Positions 3 to 29,016 of a DNA stretch of 64,000 bases are shown here, piece by piece. The notes beneath the pieces are model-generated. The model searched no databases, had not been told where the DNA came from, and saw nothing but the letters and a program-made list of their open reading frames with translations. The stretch is from Spirochaetales bacterium Spiro_05 (GTDB lineage Bacteria > Spirochaetota > Spirochaetia > Sphaerochaetales > Sphaerochaetaceae): positions 1-64,000 of the forward strand of contig LVBG01000022.1 in assembly GCA_001603115.1 (NCBI GenBank). Direction: 5' to 3'. Position 1 is the stretch's first letter, and the number at the start of each line of letters is the position of its first letter. Made by a program: the position numbers and the translations under genes.

Positions 3-107
3 ATCACCGGGGGAAAGCTGGACTTCGGCACTTGGGAGCAGATCTTCTACTTTGAGTTTGATGGGCAGAGAGAGAAACGGGCCTTGATCAAGATTATTGG
101 GGAGTAA
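3..107 (+). CDS. YjbQ/UPF0047 family protein, C-terminal part only
   Basis: Only the last 34 codons lie in the window; the gene begins before base 1. The visible end reads [20 protein letters not shown] and finishes LIKIIGE, which is the characteristic C-terminus of the YjbQ (UPF0047, secondary thiamine-phosphate synthase-like) family. The stop codon is at 105-107, one base before the end of the oppositely oriented brnA. A second, broken piece of the same family lies about 680 bases downstream. The in vivo function of this family is poorly settled, so only the family is claimed. Confidence 0.8.
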
Positions 108-1576: not shown

Positions 1577-2866
1577 ATGTCGCATTGCACCGTATTCTGT
1601 ACCTATCCTCTTGCCAAAATCCTGAAGGGTCTTTCGCTCCCTACGTGTATCCAGCGGTGTGTGATTTCATCAAAGCAAGAGGAGATTCCCAAGGCACATA
1701 CCGTTTGTGAAGCCAAATCTCTGTTCTCAGTGACTGAAGAACAGGATAGGCGAACCTTGCTTGCATCACGAGAGGCCTTCTTTCTTGATGAGAAAGGGAG
1801 GCTGAGCTTTCTGTGCAAGCTGGACAGCTCTGAAGATCCGCTGCAAACCCTATACTTTCATACTATTGAGGATGCGCTGGCTTTCATCGCCGAGTATCCA
1901 GAGCCCCAGAAGCAGATACCTCTCCTCATTGAGGAGTATGCCTCGCTGCTCAAGAAGGGCAAGCTGGTGGCTTTCCCCACCGAGACCGTCTACGGCCTGG
2001 GTGCCGATGCCACCAATGAGGAAGCGGTCAAGCGCATCTTCTCAGCAAAGCAAAGACCCTTCTTCGACCCACTGATCGTCCATATCGCTGACCTCTCCCA
2101 ACTGGAAGGCTTGGCCATGGATGTCAGTGAGCAAGCCTATACGCTGATGAGAACGTTCTGGCCGGGGCCCTTGACCCTGGTGCTGAAAAAGAGTGCGAAC
2201 GTTCCTTCCCTTGTGACAGCCGGCAGTGAAACCGTAGCCGTTCGCATGCCTGCGAATGCTCTTGCACTCAGCCTGATCAAGGCAAGCGGACTCCCCATTG
2301 CAGCCCCCAGCGCAAACCGCTTTGGCTACACCAGCCCCACTACCGCAAGGCATGTGAAAGAACAGCTGGGGGACAGGATTGAAGCAGTGCTGGATGGAGG
2401 CGCTTGTACCGTGGGCATTGAGTCAACCGTACTCAGCCTCTGCACTGAAGTACCCACCATCCTCAGACCAGGAAAGATAGGCATCGAAGAGTTGACCCCG
2501 ATTTTGGGAACCGTTGCAATGGCCCAGAAGGCAGGGCCTACCGATACCACCCTGCCCAGCCCCGGACTTCTTGACAGCCACTATGCTCCCACCACCCCGT
2601 TCTACCTTGTGGACGATGTCTCACTCTATCAGGACCGCAGTGACGTGGGAGTCATCCTGGTGGAGAAAAGCTCAGTTCCCTTCAAGGGACCGGTTGTCAC
2701 CATCAGCGAGACCGATGATGCAGAGGAAGTGGCCCGGCGCCTCTACTGGGCTATCAGGCACCTGGACAGCATGCATCTTACGTGCATGGTGGGCTCTCTG
2801 ATGGAAGAGAGAGGCATCGGGGTGGCCATCAACAACCGACTGCGCAAGGCTGCCACCAAAGCCTGA
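1577..2866 (+). CDS. Threonylcarbamoyl-AMP synthase (Sua5/YrdC family) with N-terminal extension
   Basis: The YrdC/Sua5 domain begins near residue 128 (KGKLVAFPTETVYGLGADA) and runs through the KRPFFDPL-like loop, PGPLTLVL and SANRFGYTSPTTA. The Sua5-specific C-terminal domain follows the linker PGLLDSHYAPTTPF. The enzyme makes threonylcarbamoyl-adenylate from threonine, bicarbonate and ATP for t6A37 tRNA modification. The frame is open from an ATG at 1496, but ATG 1577 is preferred: GGGAGG at 1564-1569 sits 7 bases before it, and it leaves room for a divergent promoter. The first 120 or so residues, with five cysteines (for example MSHCTVFCTYP), are not part of the known domain and I do not recognise them. 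Confidence 0.85.
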   Translation: MSHCTVFCTYPLAKILKGLSLPTCIQRCVISSKQEEIPKAHTVCEAKSLFSVTEEQDRRTLLASREAFFLDEKGRLSFLCKLDSSEDPLQTLYFHTIEDALAFIAEYPEPQKQIPLLIEEYASLLKKGKLVAFPTETVYGLGADATNEEAVKRIFSAKQRPFFDPLIVHIADLSQLEGLAMDVSEQAYTLMRTFWPGPLTLVLKKSANVPSLVTAGSETVAVRMPANALALSLIKASGLPIAAPSANRFGYTSPTTARHVKEQLGDRIEAVLDGGACTVGIESTVLSLCTEVPTILRPGKIGIEELTPILGTVAMAQKAGPTDTTLPSPGLLDSHYAPTTPFYLVDDVSLYQDRSDVGVILVEKSSVPFKGPVVTISETDDAEEVARRLYWAIRHLDSMHLTCMVGSLMEERGIGVAINNRLRKAATKA

Positions 2867-2914
2867 CGATTTTTCCTTGCCAATAGTGATAGCCACGTCT
2901 ACACTTCTCTTACC

Positions 2915-5023
2915 ATGGATGAGCTTACTGCACAACGATTGGAACGACTGAACCACCTCCAGGGAACCGACCCTGGTTTCTTTGTGCTTGCAGTCCATTC
3001 ATTCATCGAGGCATCGTTGAGGGAGCGCTACTCAATGGAGGACCTCCAGTGCAGCTTCGCTACGCTGCTCAGCCAATTTCTTGAAGAAATCACCAGTGAA
3101 GCTACCGAGTATCTGAAAGAAGTTCCGGCTCTGAAACAACTCAAGTTCTCCCATATCCAAGCCAATGAGGTACGCCACCGGTTCCGCTTCTCATCCGTTG
3201 AGGAAGCTCGTGCAGCAACCTTCCACCTTTTGCACTTCTGTCGTCTGGCGAATTTGGGAAATGCTGAACAACTAGAAAAACTCTCAGCCTACCTCAAAGC
3301 CTGGGAGAGTACGGACAGCTATGCGCAGCTGCTTGATGAGCATGCCTGCCTCAAGGCCCTCGCCGACAGATTGATGGCCTCCAACCAACAGCTTGAGCAA
3401 ACAGTGCTCGACTATCAAAATCTTCGTGAGCAGATGCGAACGGCCTATCATGAACTTGGCGAGAAGGAGCATCAGCTCAGGGAACTCGAGGCTGCCCAAG
3501 AGAAATCCCAAGAGAAGATCGATGAACTCAGAGGCCAAACCTTTGCCTTGAAGTGCACGGTCAGGGAGAAGCAACAGCAACTGGCAGAGCAAAAAGAGGT
3601 CGGCAGCTACGTGGAGGCACTCAGAAGCTTCGCTGTCTGCACACGAACCCGTCGTCAGTATGAGAGCCAGGTCATCAGGCTGACAGCAGAGCAGAACGCA
3701 TTGCTTGACAAGCTGTCCTTTGAGCAAGACAGCCTTATCAGAGGAGGTGCAGGAAGTGGAAAGACGCTGGTGCTGATGAAAGCGTACCAAGCCTGCATTT
3801 CACGGTATCCAGAGAGACGTTGCCTTTTAGTAACCTATACACGAACCCTGGTCAAATACAACCAATACCTGTGCAACCTGCTTTCTGCACACCAGACAGA
3901 CCAAAACATCATGACCGTTGATGCCCTGCTCTTCTCACTATTGCAACACTTCGAACCTGCCTCCGAGCTCGATGGAGAACTGCTGAGACATCTGCTCAAC
4001 CCTTTTGCAACCGACTCGCTCCCGCTTTGGCTGCTCGAGCAAGAAATCGAGCAATTCCTCCTCAGGCACAATATCAGCGAGGAGGAGTATCTTGAATCGA
4101 AGGTGGTACGGAAGGGGCTGAAACGCAGAGTGGGCAAACAGCAACGCAAGGCAATCTATGCACTCAAGCAAGAGGTGCTGCAGCAGATGAAAACTTTGGG
4201 GAAATACAGCTTCAGCAGTGTGGCTGTTCGGCTCTTGGAGCATCTGGAAAGAGAGCATGAATCGTCGCTCATGTTTGACAACCTGTTCGTAGATGAAGTG
4301 CAGGACCTTGGCCGGGCAGCTCTCTCTGTTCTGAAAAAGCTGACACGAAAATCAATGCTGCTCAGCTGTGATGCACAACAAAGGCTCTACCTGAAAGGAC
4401 TTCCGCTCTCCCAAAGTGGAATCATGATAGGAAGACAAAGCCATCGCCTTTTGGCCAATCATCGCAACACAATCCCCATTGAACAGCTCGATCAGCGCTA
4501 TTGCGAGCAAAGAGCACTTCCTTCAGCCTTCAGGGATGGTCCACCACCGACTCTGATAGCCTGCAAGAGCAGGAAGCATGTTCTGGATGAGCTGGTTAGC
4601 CAACTCACCTTCTATCGCACAGTACTCTCTTATGAGCTTGAGAACATCTGCATTCTCACTCCCAGCAAGCAGGACTTCCCCGTCATCCTCCAGCACGTGA
4701 AACAATCGGGCATGGAGATCAATGAGATGCTCTGTCCCTCCTTCTCCTTCACCGAAGAACAGGGAATTCGTCTTAGCACCATCCATTCGGCAAAGGGTGT
4801 GGAGTTCCCTTTGGTTCTGCTCTGTCTGACTCGTTTGCCGAGCAATCTTTCAGGGTATGATACGGCAGAACAAGATGAGATTCTCAGGAACTTGGTCCAT
4901 GTCGGCATCACCCGATCAAGCGAACAGTTGGTGGTTATGGTCAACACGCAGGAGATCCATCCTGCGTATGAGCATCTGATGCACTGTTTTCTCAGTGAGC
5001 AAGAGCTTGGGCAAACTCATTGA
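2915..5023 (+). CDS. Superfamily-1 (UvrD/PcrA-like) helicase or ATPase with novel N-terminal region
   Basis: A 702-residue protein. Residues 1-110 form a helical domain (FFVLAVHSFIEASLRERYS) that loosely resembles DUF4145-type modules. Residues about 140-240 are a heptad-rich coiled coil. Then come SF1 motifs: a Q-like LTAEQNALLDKL, Walker A GGAGSGKT (277-284), Walker B VDEVQD (459-464), NHRNT (motif near 500), TIHSAKG (622-628) and a C-terminal VGITRSSEQLVVMV. It should hydrolyse ATP on nucleic acid; no nuclease motif is apparent. No clear Shine-Dalgarno precedes ATG 2915, so an internal start is possible. It overlaps the convergent flavodoxin gene by 32 bases. Possible roles are DNA repair or genome defence; neither is shown. 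Confidence 0.75.
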   Translation: MDELTAQRLERLNHLQGTDPGFFVLAVHSFIEASLRERYSMEDLQCSFATLLSQFLEEITSEATEYLKEVPALKQLKFSHIQANEVRHRFRFSSVEEARAATFHLLHFCRLANLGNAEQLEKLSAYLKAWESTDSYAQLLDEHACLKALADRLMASNQQLEQTVLDYQNLREQMRTAYHELGEKEHQLRELEAAQEKSQEKIDELRGQTFALKCTVREKQQQLAEQKEVGSYVEALRSFAVCTRTRRQYESQVIRLTAEQNALLDKLSFEQDSLIRGGAGSGKTLVLMKAYQACISRYPERRCLLVTYTRTLVKYNQYLCNLLSAHQTDQNIMTVDALLFSLLQHFEPASELDGELLRHLLNPFATDSLPLWLLEQEIEQFLLRHNISEEEYLESKVVRKGLKRRVGKQQRKAIYALKQEVLQQMKTLGKYSFSSVAVRLLEHLEREHESSLMFDNLFVDEVQDLGRAALSVLKKLTRKSMLLSCDAQQRLYLKGLPLSQSGIMIGRQSHRLLANHRNTIPIEQLDQRYCEQRALPSAFRDGPPPTLIACKSRKHVLDELVSQLTFYRTVLSYELENICILTPSKQDFPVILQHVKQSGMEINEMLCPSFSFTEEQGIRLSTIHSAKGVEFPLVLLCLTRLPSNLSGYDTAEQDEILRNLVHVGITRSSEQLVVMVNTQEIHPAYEHLMHCFLSEQELGQTH

Positions 5024-23496: not shown

Positions 23497-23536
23497 AAGC
23501 TTATTGCAAAACGTTCTCCGATGCAAGAAGAGCGGC

Positions 23537-23694
23537 AGGTGTCTTCTTGCAGGAGGTGTGAAAATGAGGTATGATGGCTGCATAAGCACTCAGCATATCA
23601 CCTGATTTGACCAAATTGGTCTGTCCTATGCGTAGGACCACAAACGGTGGTCGTGGGCGAATGAACGCCATGACTGGATGCGAAAGACACACCT
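23537..23694 (+). ncRNA. Candidate structured 5' leader of the cation-efflux gene
   Basis: Three perfect short inverted repeats lie side by side: GACCAA/TTGGTC (23609-23621), GTCCTA/TAGGAC (23623-23638) and GACCAC/GTGGTC (23636-23652). The bases just before the start codon, CACACCT (23688-23694), can pair with AGGTGTG (23554-23560), while the overlapping AAGACAC (23684-23690) can instead pair with GTGTCTT (23539-23545). No ordinary Shine-Dalgarno precedes ATG 23695. This could be a regulatory leader, but I cannot match it to a known riboswitch and no promoter has been mapped. Confidence 0.35.
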
Positions 23695-24627
23695 ATGAGT
23701 ACCAAAAAACAGGAACTGCAAATTCTTCGGTTGACCACGCTCGTCTGCCTCGGCTTCGGCGTGCTCGGTCTTCTCGCCTCCGTTTGGGCAAGCTCGAACT
23801 CACTCTTGATCGACGGACTCTACTCCATGATCCAAAGCCTCTTCATCATAGGATCGGGCAAGGTCGTCCTGCTCTTGTTCAAGAAGGATGATGATCGCTT
23901 TCCCTTCGGATACGGCTCCTTCGAGCCTTTCTTCCTCACCCTCCGTTCGCTGGTGTTGCTTACCATGATGTTAGTCATCGGCAGCAATGCTGCCAAATCC
24001 TTGGCACATGGGGGCTACATCATTTCCGTTTCGATTGCCCTGCCTGTCTCGGCTCTCTCGCTGGTGGTTTGCTTCATCATCTGGATGCTGCTCAAAACAA
24101 AGGCCCGCACGCTCTCCAGCCCCTTGCTCCGTTCTGAAAGCAAGGCTTGGATGCTCGACACCCTGCTCAGTCTTGCTTCTGTCATCGCCATTCTCCTGGT
24201 CATGGTCTTCTCAAAGGGAAGACTCTCCTCTGTCTCCTCCTATATAGACCCTGCCCTTACCCTCTTGTTCCTGCTCTTTCTCTCCCCCTCATTGGTGAAG
24301 GATATCATCCAATACAGTGCAGAGTTGCTCGGTGCCGCCCCATCGGCGCAGGTGCAGCAGGCACTGGAGAAGATTGTTACCCGATTCGTTCGTTCACATC
24401 ACTTCCTCAGCTCCGAAGTTTTTGCCTCAAAACGGGGTAGAAGCCTTCACGTTGTGATCTATATCTATCTTGGGGAGGAGCATCCACTGCTCGAGCTTGA
24501 TGCAATTCGCCTCGAGATGACCAAGGCGCTGCTCTCCTATTGCAGTTGGTGCGATGCGGACATCATCTTCACGGTTGATGATCGTTGGATGGATGCATCT
24601 TCCTTTCTGAAACTCCAAAAGGCTTGA
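23695..24627 (+). CDS. Cation diffusion facilitator-family protein with altered metal site
   Basis: A 310-residue CDF protein with six membrane helices and a C-terminal cytoplasmic domain (about 215-300). The family motif FPFGYGSFEPFF is present (about residues 69-80). In characterised members such as FieF/YiiP the transport site uses Asp45/Asp49 in TM2 and His153/Asp157 in TM5. The aligned positions here are Asp40/Ser44 (LLIDGLYSMIQS) and Ala151/Asp155 (SKAWMLDTLLS), so half of the ligands are missing. It may transport a different ion or use another site. Confidence 0.8.
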   Translation: MSTKKQELQILRLTTLVCLGFGVLGLLASVWASSNSLLIDGLYSMIQSLFIIGSGKVVLLLFKKDDDRFPFGYGSFEPFFLTLRSLVLLTMMLVIGSNAAKSLAHGGYIISVSIALPVSALSLVVCFIIWMLLKTKARTLSSPLLRSESKAWMLDTLLSLASVIAILLVMVFSKGRLSSVSSYIDPALTLLFLLFLSPSLVKDIIQYSAELLGAAPSAQVQQALEKIVTRFVRSHHFLSSEVFASKRGRSLHVVIYIYLGEEHPLLELDAIRLEMTKALLSYCSWCDADIIFTVDDRWMDASSFLKLQKA

Positions 24628-24698: not shown

Positions 24699-25022
24699 AT
24701 GCGAACACGATATTCACAGTTCTTGCTGCTTGGCATACTCTCCTTGCTGCTCTTCTTCAGCACCGGTTGTGGTGTCTACAGCAAGGTGCCAGCAGTACAA
24801 CCAGAGGGACAGGGATGGGAAGGTCCCCTGCTTGATCAGGCGGATATGGAAGACATCCAGGTCACCGTCAAGGCCCGCAAGAACTCAGTTACCCTCAACC
24901 TTGAGGAACTGGATGCTGACCTGCCGCTCTTGCTTACCTATATCAACCAAGCAGAAGAAACCAGCTCATCGAACAATGAGCTGGGATCTGAATACATTCT
25001 GGTCATCGCAAAGAAAGAGTAG
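24699..25022 (+). CDS. Small lipoprotein, unknown function
   Basis: A 107-residue protein with a clear type-II signal peptide: hydrophobic LLLGILSLLLFF followed by the lipobox STGC at about residues 21-24. The mature part is acidic, without recognisable domain (for example LNLEELDADLPLLLTYINQA). GGGAGGGGAAAGG precedes the ATG. Its stop lies one base before the convergent ABC-ATPase gene. Confidence 0.65.
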   Translation: MRTRYSQFLLLGILSLLLFFSTGCGVYSKVPAVQPEGQGWEGPLLDQADMEDIQVTVKARKNSVTLNLEELDADLPLLLTYINQAEETSSSNNELGSEYILVIAKKE

Positions 25023-25023
25023 A

Positions 25024-26106
25024 TCAGAGAATCACATGCGCACTGATCGGATCGAAGGTCACCCCTACCTCATCACCCACCTTGTACAGACCCTCTTTCA
25101 CCGGATTATAGGAGATGGCCACAATCGGTTCTGTTCTCCCCTTCACACTGATCTCATACTCAACGGTTGCACCTAGGTAGACAGCCTCGGTGATTTTGCC
25201 ATTGAAAAAGGCTTGCTCGCTGTTTTTCTGGATATGCAAGCCTTCGGGTCGGATGACTACCGTCGCACGCTTGCCTGCCTTGACATCCTTATTGAATGCA
25301 GGGAATTGGTACTGTTTCTGGTTGACTTCTACGGTAACCACATCAGAGACACTCTTCACCATACAGGAAAAAAAGTTTGCCCGACCGATGAAATCAGCGA
25401 CAAAATGATTGGTCGGCCTGCTGTAGATCTCAAACGGAGTTCCCAGCTGCTGGATCCTTCCCTTGTCCATGACCATGATCCGATCACTGACTGTCATCGC
25501 CTCATCCTGGTCATGGGTCACATAGATGCTGGTGATCCCAAACTGCTGCTGGATTCGCCTGATCTCAGTCCGCATCTGGTCTCTCAGCTTTGCATCAAGG
25601 TTGGAAAGTGGTTCATCAAAGAGCAGCACACGCGGTTTGGTGACGATTGCCCTTGCAAGTGCCACACGCTGTTGCTGACCACCGGAAAGCTGGCTGGGCT
25701 GCCTTGTCCCGAGGGCAGAAAGCCCCATGGTTCGCATGATCACATCCACTTCGCTCTTGATCTGGCTCTTCTTCAACCCCTTCAGTTCAAGGCCGAAGCC
25801 GATATTCTCCTCAACCGTGAGGTGGGGAAAGATGGCATAAGATTGGAACACCATCGAAGAGTTGCGTTTATTGGCCGGCAAATCATTTACCAGCGAACCG
25901 TCGATGTAGACATCACCCTTGGTCTGTTTCTCAAACCCGCTGATGATTCTCAGCGTGGTGGTCTTGCCGCAGCCGGATGGGCCGAGGAAGGTAACCATCT
26001 CCCCTTCCTTTATCTCAATATTGACATCATCGACTGCTGTGAACTCCTTGCTCTTGTCATCCTGGTCGGTGAAAATCTTGGTTACTTTTACTAAGGTTAC
26101 GCTCAT
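25024..26106 (-). CDS. ABC transporter ATP-binding protein (FbpC/PotA-like)
   Basis: A 360-residue ATPase with Walker A GPSGCGKTT (about residues 42-50), Q-loop FQSYAIFPHLTV, signature LSGGQQQR, Walker B VLLFDEPLSNLD and the switch histidine VTHDQDEA. Residues after about 240 form a TOBE regulatory domain. It powers the fused permease encoded just upstream. The set of binding protein, fused permease and ATPase with TOBE domain is typical of ferric-ion or 2-aminoethylphosphonate importers. Confidence 0.92.
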   Translation of the reverse strand: MSVTLVKVTKIFTDQDDKSKEFTAVDDVNIEIKEGEMVTFLGPSGCGKTTTLRIISGFEKQTKGDVYIDGSLVNDLPANKRNSSMVFQSYAIFPHLTVEENIGFGLELKGLKKSQIKSEVDVIMRTMGLSALGTRQPSQLSGGQQQRVALARAIVTKPRVLLFDEPLSNLDAKLRDQMRTEIRRIQQQFGITSIYVTHDQDEAMTVSDRIMVMDKGRIQQLGTPFEIYSRPTNHFVADFIGRANFFSCMVKSVSDVVTVEVNQKQYQFPAFNKDVKAGKRATVVIRPEGLHIQKNSEQAFFNGKITEAVYLGATVEYEISVKGRTEPIVAISYNPVKEGLYKVGDEVGVTFDPISAHVIL

Positions 26107-26115
26107 GTTGTGCTC

Positions 26116-27807
26116 CTACTGTGAGAGAATTGAACTGGTGGTGTGGTACTTCAACCGCAGAATCAGCTTGATCACTGCCATGGCAACCAAGATGATGGCC
26201 ACCAGGATCAGACTGAAGGCGGCAGCCGCTCCAATGCGACCACTCTCCACTTGGCTCATGATCTGGACCGTCATGAGTTTCCACCGTGCCGATACCAAGA
26301 AGATTGCTGCACTGATGGCCGTCATGCTCCGCACAAAGCTGAAGATGAGGGAGCTGAAGAAAGCCGGAACCATCAGCGGAAGCGTCACCCGTTGGAAGGT
26401 CTTGTTGCTGTCTGCACCCAAATCGACAGCAGCCTCCTCAATGGAGGGATCGATTTGCTTGAGCACTGCCACCCCACCCTGCACACCGACGGGGATGTAG
26501 CGGAAGATGAAGTTAAGCAGCAGAATCAGCAAGGTTCCCGTCAGATAGAGCGGATGCTTGTTGAAAGCCAGGATGTAGCCGATACCTACTACCGTACCAG
26601 GAAGGGCGAAGCTGAGCATGGAGGAGAACTCCATGAACTTTCTTCCCCAGAACTTCTTTCTGACCACCAAAAAGGCGATGATCATACCCAAGATACCTGC
26701 AACCGGCGTGGAAAGGCCTGCGATGGCAAGGGTATCGAGCACCGACTCGAAGCCAACACGCCAGACATAGACGAAATTCTGCAGGGTAAGCTTGGAGCTG
26801 TTGCCCCACGATTCGGCAAAGGCCCCAAAGACGATGCTTGCATAGACGAGGATGATGAAGAAAGCGATCAGGCAGCAAACTCCAAAAAGTATCCACCGGG
26901 CCTTGGGACTGACCACATCGTTGCTGGACTGGGTCGGCTTTCCGGTAACCGTCACATACTGCTTCTTGCTCACCCAATACTTTTGGAGCATGTAGGCTGA
27001 GACGGAGGGAACCAGCAGGATGAATGCAAGCGCCGCCCCCTTGGCGAAGTTGCCCATACCGGTTATCTCCAGGTATGCTTGCACCGAGAGGATGGGAAAC
27101 TGTGCCCCTGCCAGCACCAAGGGATTGCCGAAGTCGGCCAGCGACTCGACAAAAAGGATGAGCATGGAGGAGGCAATGCCTGGAATGGAAAGGGGCAAGG
27201 TGACCTTGCGAAAGATGGTGAACCTATTGCCGCCCAGATCCATGGCGGCATCCTCCAAGGTGGGACTGATCGACTCAAGGACGCCCCGCAAGGTGATGTA
27301 AGCAACCGGGAAGAAGGTCAGCACCTGGGCAAAGAGCAAGCCTTTCGCTCCATAGGCGCTGGCATTCTTCATGCCAAGCAAGGTGGAGCTGATAAAACCA
27401 TTTCTTCCAAAGAGCATGATCACTGCCAAGGCCCCGATGAACGGGGGACTGATGATGGGAATCGTTGCGATCAGGTTGAAGAACCTGCGGCCTGGGATAT
27501 TTGCCCGAGTCAGGGAGTAGGCAAAAACATAGGCTATCAAGGTACCCAATACGGCGGTGGCCACCCCCATCCATAATGAGTTGAAGAGGGCCTTGAGGTA
27601 GTAGCCATTTGAATAGGTAAGTACATCGGTAAAATTCTTGAATGAGAAGGCTCCATTGACTTGGAAACTGACCACTACCACCTTATAGAGTGGGTAGATG
27701 ATGAAGAGGACCAGTGAGAGGAGCAACAAGAGAATGACACCCAACAAGAGCGGGTCCTTGCTCAGTTGGATGAAGCTGTGCCATGAGGAGATGATACGTT
27801 GTTTCAT
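26116..27807 (-). CDS. ABC transporter permease with two fused domains (FbpB-like)
   Basis: A 563-residue membrane protein with two consecutive binding-protein-dependent permease domains. Each has its EAA loop: LEDAAMDLGGNRFTIFRKVT in the first half (about residues 189-208) and IEEAAVDLGADSNKTFQRVT in the second (about 468-487). The fused form supplies both membrane subunits of a FbpABC-type importer. It starts after a stable hairpin that follows the binding-protein gene and ends 9 bases before the ATPase gene. Confidence 0.92.
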   Translation of the reverse strand: MKQRIISSWHSFIQLSKDPLLLGVILLLLLSLVLFIIYPLYKVVVVSFQVNGAFSFKNFTDVLTYSNGYYLKALFNSLWMGVATAVLGTLIAYVFAYSLTRANIPGRRFFNLIATIPIISPPFIGALAVIMLFGRNGFISSTLLGMKNASAYGAKGLLFAQVLTFFPVAYITLRGVLESISPTLEDAAMDLGGNRFTIFRKVTLPLSIPGIASSMLILFVESLADFGNPLVLAGAQFPILSVQAYLEITGMGNFAKGAALAFILLVPSVSAYMLQKYWVSKKQYVTVTGKPTQSSNDVVSPKARWILFGVCCLIAFFIILVYASIVFGAFAESWGNSSKLTLQNFVYVWRVGFESVLDTLAIAGLSTPVAGILGMIIAFLVVRKKFWGRKFMEFSSMLSFALPGTVVGIGYILAFNKHPLYLTGTLLILLLNFIFRYIPVGVQGGVAVLKQIDPSIEEAAVDLGADSNKTFQRVTLPLMVPAFFSSLIFSFVRSMTAISAAIFLVSARWKLMTVQIMSQVESGRIGAAAAFSLILVAIILVAMAVIKLILRLKYHTTSSILSQ

Positions 27808-27833
27808 GAGGACCTCATCATTGATTCAAAGCA

Positions 27834-27857
27834 TCTCCGGCAGGTCTCTGCCGGAGA
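27834..27857 (-). promoter_or_regulatory. Intercistronic hairpin between binding protein and permease genes
   Basis: TCTCCGGCAG (27834-27843) and CTGCCGGAGA (27848-27857) make a perfect 10-bp stem with a 4-base loop. On the minus strand it is followed by TGCTTTG, not a T-run, so full termination is unlikely. Such hairpins commonly protect the binding-protein mRNA or partially terminate, keeping the binding protein in excess. Confidence 0.7.
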
Positions 27858-27871
27858 GGGAAAACAAAACA

Positions 27872-28897
27872 TTACTTCTTTGCCGAAAGCACTTCGCTGA
27901 CCCAGCGTTCCACCAGCTCAGCCTTGCGGCTGCTGTAGTAGGAAAGGTCTACGCCTACCACGTTGAGGGTGGAAAAAGCAGGCATGACGGGATCGATCTC
28001 AGCATCGTCGATAACCGGATAGAAGTAGGTTCCGGTAGACTTGAGCACATCCTGTCCCTTCTTGCTGACCAACCACTCCATGAAGATCTTGGCAGCCTCA
28101 TAGTTCTTGGCTCCCTTGAGGATGGAAGCAGCGGGGAACTCGAACCCAAAACCTTCGCTTGGGAAGACAATTTCGATCGGTTGTCCGTTTGCCTTCATCT
28201 GGAAGAAAGCGGGGGAGAACTGGATGCCGATGGCAGCATCACCGACGTTCACACCCTTGGAGGGGCCTGTGCCACTTGAGGTGTAGGTCTGGATGTTGGC
28301 ATTCAGCTTGGCCATGTAGGCAAACGCTTCAGCCTCGCCCATGATCTCGATCAGGCTGTACACCATGGTCGTTGCCGTACCGCTGGCCTGCGGAGTCGGC
28401 ATCTGGATCAGGTTCTTGTACTCGGGCTTGAGCAGGTCGGCCCAGCTGGTCGGTACCTTTGCCCCTGCCTTCTGCAGTGCTACGGTATTCACCCCGAAGC
28501 AGAGCGGATTCATATAGAAGCCTCTCCAATACCCTTCACTATCCTTGAACTCTGCACCCAAAGCTTCGAAAGCGGGCCCCTTGTACGGGACGGTCAAACC
28601 ATCTTTCTTGGCAATGACATGGTTGTCACTCGGAGCTCCAAGCCAGACGTCGGCTTGGGGTCTGCCGCTCTCAGCCTGGATCCTGGTGAGGGCCGGCCCA
28701 CTGGAGAGCTGGACAAAACTTGTCTTGATGGCGGTATCCTTGGTGAAGGCATCGAGAATCTTCACGGCGTTCGCCTCATCGACACTCGCATACACAACCA
28801 GCTCTTTTGCAGCCTGCCCATCTTCCTTCGACCCCTGGGCTGCTACTGGACTGAAAACGGTCACAAGGACCATAAGTACCACTAACCACTGTTTCAT
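27872..28897 (-). CDS. ABC transporter substrate-binding protein (FbpA/AfuA-like)
   Basis: A 341-residue periplasmic protein with a signal peptide (MKQWLVVLMVLVTVFSPVAAQ). It has a type-2 binding fold: ELVVYASVDEANAVKILDAF at the start, then GRPQADVWLGAPSDNHV, PTSWADLLKPEYKNLIQMPT and a C-terminal YYSSRKAELVERW. Relatives bind ferric iron or phosphonates; a tyrosine pair is present near the end, but the ligand cannot be fixed. AGGAGGT precedes ATG 28897; the upstream frame lacks a signal peptide and is rejected. It is the first gene of the importer operon. Confidence 0.88.
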   Translation of the reverse strand: MKQWLVVLMVLVTVFSPVAAQGSKEDGQAAKELVVYASVDEANAVKILDAFTKDTAIKTSFVQLSSGPALTRIQAESGRPQADVWLGAPSDNHVIAKKDGLTVPYKGPAFEALGAEFKDSEGYWRGFYMNPLCFGVNTVALQKAGAKVPTSWADLLKPEYKNLIQMPTPQASGTATTMVYSLIEIMGEAEAFAYMAKLNANIQTYTSSGTGPSKGVNVGDAAIGIQFSPAFFQMKANGQPIEIVFPSEGFGFEFPAASILKGAKNYEAAKIFMEWLVSKKGQDVLKSTGTYFYPVIDDAEIDPVMPAFSTLNVVGVDLSYYSSRKAELVERWVSEVLSAKK

Positions 28898-28935
28898 GCA
28901 AACCTCCTGTTGAATATCATGATACGTGTAAATCC

Positions 28936-28963
28936 ATTCTACCATTGATTTGGCGGGGGGCAA
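28936..28963 (-). promoter_or_regulatory. Likely promoter of the ABC importer operon
   Basis: On the minus strand TTGCCC (28963-28958) and TAGAAT (28941-28936) are spaced by 16 bases, 39 bases before the binding-protein start. A perfect palindrome TATCATGATA (28915-28924) sits at the expected transcription start and may be an operator. Confidence 0.5.
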
Positions 28964-29016
28964 GCAAAGGTTTTGGCTATCAGGAAGCAAAAGTGTTGAT
29001 ATTACAGAAGTTACAT

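Follow-up and report, generated by a model that had tools for sequence, protein, structure and literature searches.

A putative orphan riboswitch-type RNA preceding a CDF transporter gene, apparently confined to the genus Sphaerochaeta

The CDF gene, its promoter and its translation start

The locus lies in the window (the whole 64,000-nucleotide stretch of DNA analyzed), where a gene for a CDF (cation efflux) protein is preceded by a short leader with a promoter-like sequence at its 5' edge; divergent genes for HlyD-type and AcrB-type proteins lie upstream.

23547–23575, + strand: promoter-like sequence TTGCAG – 17 nt – TATGAT, 8/12 to consensus
23582–23694, + strand: predicted 5' leader of the CDF transcript, ~113 nt, almost entirely structured RNA
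23695–24627, + strand: CDF (cation efflux) gene, 310 aa, without Shine-Dalgarno sequence (PF01545, E 2.7e-23)

By its fold and its Pfam profile match the gene product is a CDF transporter. The AlphaFold model (mean pLDDT 79.9) aligns with ZnT3 (Z 21.5, rmsd 6.4, 282 residues) and with YiiP (Z 20.1, rmsd 6.8, 276 residues); the score against the NCBIfam profile TIGR01297, 73.2 bits, is under the cut-off of 82.35. Residues Y43 and Q47 are present in 19 of 19 orthologs (and invariant among the 13 that were aligned), and in a profile built from these 13 they fall opposite His146 and position 150 in TM2 of ZnT4, in a weak match (E 0.046; the ZnT4 chain is the D150N mutant, position 150 being natively Asp). 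By this weak alignment Y and Q stand where the canonical H/D-x3-D metal ligands of TM2 would be expected. Since Y43 and Q47 replace the usual metal residues, it is uncertain what the transporter carries and hence whether the RNA would bind a metal; the suggestion of the initial annotation that the leader might be metal responsive thus stays uncertain, as CDF proteins are a metal-exporting family, yet this one carries Y43 and Q47.

Near the CDF gene a small lipoprotein-like protein (GVYSK.PA...EGPLLD) is encoded at 24699–25022 of the window, at 2728–3087 of locus L012 and at 232–696 of locus L007; the copies in the window and in L012 match nothing in Pfam. It is followed in the window by ABC transporter genes (25024–28990: a TOBE_2 ATPase, a two-domain permease and a binding-protein-like ORF), which at a guess are of the iron(III) type.

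The promoter-like pair recurs at the 5' edge of the leader, in the form TTGNNN-16..18-TANNNT, in 19 of 19 orthologous leaders with scores of 7–10 of 12 (those of L015 and L016 are weak, at 7/12); a generic promoter scan with a threshold of 9/12 returned none, the window pair scoring below that threshold. The distance from the end of the -10 hexamer to the ATG is 116–143 nt in 18 of the 19 (118–120 nt in subtype A1 and 141–143 nt in subtype A2, both introduced below, 116–119 nt in L013–L015 and 132 nt in L018), and in the remaining leader, L002, two sites of equal score lie at 150 and 120 nt, the homologous one being that at 120. The transcript would start near 23582, as placed from the sequence 7 nt past the -10 hexamer. 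This computational prediction falls upstream of 23652, the last position at which the initial annotation had allowed transcription of its proposed regulatory RNA to begin. No terminator-like site was found in the window leader. Overlapping the -35 hexamer is a perfect inverted repeat of 10 bases (TGCAAGAAGA / TCTTCTTGCA, the arms 10 bases apart, 23522–23551), which, compared by eye, is partly kept in L002–L004; it is possibly a transcription factor operator.

The absence of a Shine-Dalgarno sequence, already remarked on for the window gene, extends to all of its orthologs, as AGGA, GGAG, GAGG or AAGG occurs at -17 to -4 in 0 of 19 (in L018 an AGGA at -5 to -2 is too close to the start and outside the scanned range). 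Among 167 ORFs of at least 200 aa, sampled from the window and 200 kb of genome G002, a Shine-Dalgarno motif precedes some candidate start within the first 40 codons in 128 and the first candidate in 81; the corresponding figure for internal ATGs is 209 of 1398.

Architecture and covariation of the leader

A common RNA is seen in 15 leaders, and its structure was drawn up manually once ten of them had been aligned; L001–L012 belong to subtype A1, and L016, L017 and L019 to subtype A2, which has an extra hairpin preceding P4. The predicted leader is 112–137 nt long across the 15 and contains five helices, in which P0 closes the domain, P1 surrounds P2 and P3, and P4 follows.

23588–23596 with 23670–23672 and 23674–23679, + strand: P0, closing helix, A23673 bulged
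23597–23602 with 23646–23651, + strand: P1, enclosing P2 and P3, also recovered by RNAalifold
23609–23621, + strand: P2 hairpin
23623–23638, + strand: P3 hairpin, GUCCUA-UGCG-UAGGAC, with a UNCG-type loop
23656–23669, + strand: P4 hairpin, GGCG-AAUGAA-CGCC, near-invariant

Compensatory changes across species were found in P0, P1 and P2. In P1, 100% of cells are paired and four of six pairs show changes on both sides; in P2 the corresponding values, on the alignment fitted to the model, are 93.6% and five of six, and the letters swap as the pairing stays (GACCAA/UUGGUC versus GAUACU/AGUAUC and GUGCAC-type stems). P0 is the weakest helix, with 77.5% of cells paired in ten leaders and 86% on the model-fitted alignment, and with both-side changes in four of nine pairs on either alignment; its register slips by one base in divergent leaders, and it is absent from the RNAalifold consensus and was added by hand. 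P3 and P4 hardly vary, and their support is therefore one of conservation. P3 keeps CCUAURCGUAGGA with 96% of cells paired, loses one pair in the three A2 leaders and has five of six pairs invariant, making it too conserved for a covariation test; P4 is paired in 100% of cells, with a single change from G-C to G-U (in L002) and zero double changes. In all, 44 columns are invariant across the ten leaders, including the loops and the AAAC junction (J). RNAalifold independently recovers P1, P2, P3 and P4 from the ten leaders, with 19 pairs of which nine show double changes.

The structure was compared with several kinds of control. Standard pairs fill 90.8% of the pair cells in the ten leaders, with double changes in 13 of the 31 pairs, the slid controls being 24–40% paired; 0 of 500 shuffles match the real alignment on four measures, and on the fifth, further pair types, where the real alignment is not exceptional, 217 of 500 do. 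For all 15 leaders (13 of them distinct), in an alignment that was fitted to the model and so is biased towards it, 94.0% of cells are paired and both-side changes again occur in 13 of the 31 pairs, with slid controls at 24–42%, 0 of 500 shuffles matching on the same four measures and 79 of 500 on further pair types. The RNAalifold energy of -19.25 compares with -3.31 ± 1.96 in 300 column shuffles that preserve gap pattern and conservation class, none of which is as low. Of 300 structure-free alignments simulated on the leader tree (mean identity 0.68, as against 0.72 in the real alignment), none reaches the real energy (simulated mean -1.11, minimum -8.41) or the nine compensatory pairs that the real alignment has within its predicted structure (the simulated maximum being 6). 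G-U cells number 16 and A-C cells 7, which favors the gene's strand (+); the reverse complement folds slightly better in RNAalifold (-21.3), and energy cannot discriminate the strands.

On this comparison of sequences, the leader of the CDF gene is a real conserved structured RNA. The comparative evidence lies far beyond chance, unlike the folding energy of the window leader by itself, which is within chance (z -1.49 for 23583–23720 and -0.96 for the 117-nt leader); z is -3.32 for 23520–23720, but that segment reaches back beyond the predicted start. The proposal of the initial annotation that a regulatory RNA precedes the cation-efflux gene is therefore strengthened by the relatives to which it had looked for covariation, in which the helices are kept by compensatory changes across the genus and all 15 strong matches lie directly 5' of the CDF gene. 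Its detailed structural model, built from three adjacent perfect 6-base dyads and two 7-base pairings of the bases preceding the start codon, all of which do exist in the window sequence, survives in part.

23609–23614 / 23616–23621: dyad 1, GACCAA/TTGGTC
23623–23628 / 23633–23638: dyad 2, GTCCTA/TAGGAC
23636–23641 / 23647–23652: dyad 3, GACCAC/GTGGTC
23539–23545 / 23684–23690: pairing GTGTCTT/AAGACAC
23554–23560 / 23688–23694: pairing AGGTGTG/CACACCT

Dyads 1 and 2 are real helices, corresponding to P2 and P3, each with 84 of 90 cells paired across the 15 leaders. Dyad 3 (77 of 90 cells) is mutually exclusive with P1 and P3 and decays in divergent leaders, keeping six of six pairs in eight leaders, five in four and two to four in the three divergent ones, and it was rejected as a conserved helix. 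Both start-codon pairings are likewise unsupported. Their partner bases at 23539–23560 precede the -35 hexamer or fall between the two promoter hexamers, 5' of the predicted transcript, and these stretches differ among relatives when compared by eye; for these reasons the pairings probably lie outside the RNA. In the minimum-energy fold of the window leader the 3' strand of P1 pairs instead with the region of the start codon; this alternative was also discarded as a conserved feature, as by eye it is not kept in relatives.

In unliganded folding the leaders often favor alternative folds, the mean pair probability being at least 0.5 for P1 in 6 of 15 leaders and for P0 in 1 of 15, and no conserved pairing with the start region is seen in the folds of the 15. 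When the domain is forced, the region from -15 to +15 is more open in 12 of the 15 leaders, equal in one and less open in two; the AUG itself is more open in eight and less open in seven. Because the opening of the AUG is mixed, and because forced pairing removes competitors, no direction of switching follows from these calculations.

Distribution and relation to known RNAs

Neither the transporter nor the RNA is present in all 26 genomes of the genus, which is apparently Sphaerochaeta. A search of 60 genomes with the CDF protein finds orthologs at 47–100% identity in 19 of the 26, the window's genome included, and matches beyond the genus have at most 29% identity. The RNA is present in 15 of the 26, always immediately 5' of the CDF ortholog, and model R1 finds it at E below 1e-13 in a single place each. 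The seven genus genomes that have no CDF ortholog also have no RNA, apart from a chance-like partial match in G023; the two weak additional R1 matches have E values of 0.11 (G011) and 0.95 (G023). Weak matches of this kind, among them L052 (22 bits, overlapping the start of a gene that is MarR-like by sequence) and L051 (17.7 bits, partial), were put down to chance. L012 retains the RNA with an upstream gene other than the divergent hlyD of L007, L016 and the window.

Among 139 family genomes model R2, at E up to 0.1, finds the same 15 and none of the 113 from other genera. R2 is positive in 9 of 394 class genomes and R1 in 2 of 392 phylum genomes, all in the genus; thus no convincing copy was found beyond the genus in the family, class and phylum genomes searched, under stricter filters with which weak matches are lost. 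A pattern scan of all genomes was built on the divergent subtype, in which two bases precede AAAC, and was blind to the main subtype, in which three do; it returned three genus/order records and one match each in Nodosilinea (L032) and Actinomycetaceae (L034). The latter two were rejected, as R1 and R2 give no match at either position. A viral scan with a similar pattern gave no matches. From the sequences searched, the RNA appears to belong to one gene in one genus.

Four CDF orthologs, L013–L015 and L018, have no type A RNA by either R1 or R2. In L013–L015 the last 115–118 nt before the CDF start form a second leader type with a CAGCAC/GTGCTG-like closing stem and a conserved CAGAGGARTA. As a fold this leader is weakly supported, since its RNAalifold covariation term is unfavorable (+1.12) and single folds of L013 (z -0.26) and L014 (z -1.32) are no better than chance; the L013 leader gives nothing in Rfam at E up to 5. 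The third leader, in L018 (about 1370–1500), has strong hairpins (z -3.18) and two Rfam matches, both sub-threshold. By eye its order is a closing helix, an inner helix with two hairpins and two further hairpins, seemingly the topology of subtype A2 in other letters.

At the gathering cut-off Rfam 15, with its NiCo, yybP-ykoY, ykoK and Li/Na riboswitch families, gives no match in the window or in 14 loci. At E up to 10 the L012 leader gives none and the window leader a single 7.6-bit match on the minus strand (gathering 60), in agreement with the initial impression that the leader resembles no known riboswitch consensus. By these searches the RNA fits no Rfam family, and an RNA switch of a new kind is the likeliest account of it.

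The yybP-ykoY Mn2+ riboswitch controls Mn export genes such as mntP; the present RNA has no Rfam match, and its conserved loops differ from those of that riboswitch. The NiCo (czcD) riboswitch precedes CDF transporter genes in a metal-efflux setting, according to PMC7689651, and so shares with this RNA the position of a leader before a CDF gene; it is distinguished by the arrangement here of P0 around P1(P2,P3) and P4 and by other conserved letters. The Li+-I, Li+-II and Na+-I riboswitches (nhaA-I, nhaA-II and DUF1646 motifs) also lead cation transporter genes, and those for Li+ are unlike RNAs that precede one type of gene and sense one ion, as PMC9646797 describes; the present RNA differs from these in having no Rfam match. 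The mgtE and ykoW motifs of Thioalkalivibrio, presented in PMC11109978 as genus-restricted riboswitch candidates, are alike in having few representatives, one genus, covariation and a place in the leader of a transporter or signaling gene; those motifs include the Shine-Dalgarno sequence, whereas here there is none and the domain stops before the start codon. In the literature searched, no paper was found on Sphaerochaeta and riboswitches, or joining Sphaerochaeta and cation efflux, and the papers listed concern other work; a motif-discovery survey included Spirochaetes genomes, as stated in PMC8632094, and its supplements or those of PMC11109978 could list the RNA.

Candidate function and rival explanations

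The preferred reading, to which a probability of about 0.6 is given, is an orphan riboswitch-type RNA, restricted to the genus, that acts on translation of the CDF gene. A compact domain, in which P0 closes a junction formed by P4 and by P1 with its inner helices P2 and P3, would be transcribed from the promoter at its 5' edge and would end, with P0, 11–18 nt ahead of the AUG in 15 of 15 leaders. The substrate of the transporter, or its signal, might bind the conserved P3, J and P4 elements, and the bound ligand would stabilize P0 and P1 and thereby alter the access of ribosomes to a start codon without a Shine-Dalgarno sequence. Both ligand binding and the translational mode are what we infer for this putative riboswitch, and a cation is the default guess for its ligand.

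The two near-invariant hairpins (P3 with its UNCG-type loop and P4 with its AAUGAA loop) and the single strong place in each genome would also suit a protein site, and a conserved site at which a protein or a small RNA represses or activates translation of the CDF gene, with no small-molecule ligand, is a rival explanation. It is considered unlikely, as the covarying P0/P1 junction and the variable P2 exceed the usual needs of a simple protein site. More doubtful still is a constitutive 5' structure that takes the place of the Shine-Dalgarno sequence, docking the ribosome or stabilizing with no sensing. It would be in keeping with the lack of that sequence in every ortholog and with a structure that always ends shortly before the AUG, as well as with the strongly folded leader that L018 has in place of the type A RNA; however, the invariance of P3, J and P4 at the level of bases is greater than a mere prop would need, and the L013 and L014 leaders, as given above, do not fold better than chance.

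Control of the CDF gene by a short upstream ORF beginning at the AUG of the P4 loop is highly improbable: seven of eight A1b leaders (L005–L012 except L010) have a frame of 12 codons whose ATGA end overlaps the gene start, but across the 15 leaders all three registers against the gene (0, 1 and 2) occur, and the remaining eight have the stop elsewhere or not at all; such a leader peptide was rejected, its frame and stop not being conserved. As remote is the explanation that the dyads are DNA operator sites or chance rather than RNA, which their palindromic form and the chance-level energy of the window leader would permit but which is contradicted by covarying nested helices that include the long-range P0 and P1, by the G-U excess on the gene's strand and by simulated alignments that never reach the real values.

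If the preferred reading of the leader as a riboswitch is right, it would add an unlisted class in a phylum with few known riboswitch classes, would help to find what an atypical CDF subfamily transports and would exemplify RNA-controlled translation without a Shine-Dalgarno sequence. A more far-reaching version, in which a new class found only in Sphaerochaeta governs such translation, the CDF substrate is something other than a classical transition metal and the RNA has diverged into, or been replaced by, other leaders in sister species, is offered tentatively and is on balance doubtful. The differing leaders before orthologous genes would then form a natural series for studying aptamer turnover. 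In the CDF gene tree, which is unrooted because the outgroup L020 is too distant, the genes of L013–L015 form one clade (99/99), and that of L018 groups with L017 and L019 (90/90, on a long branch). The CDF frame of L015 (506–1429), from a draft genome, contains one in-frame TAG, reflecting either a pseudogene or a sequencing error.
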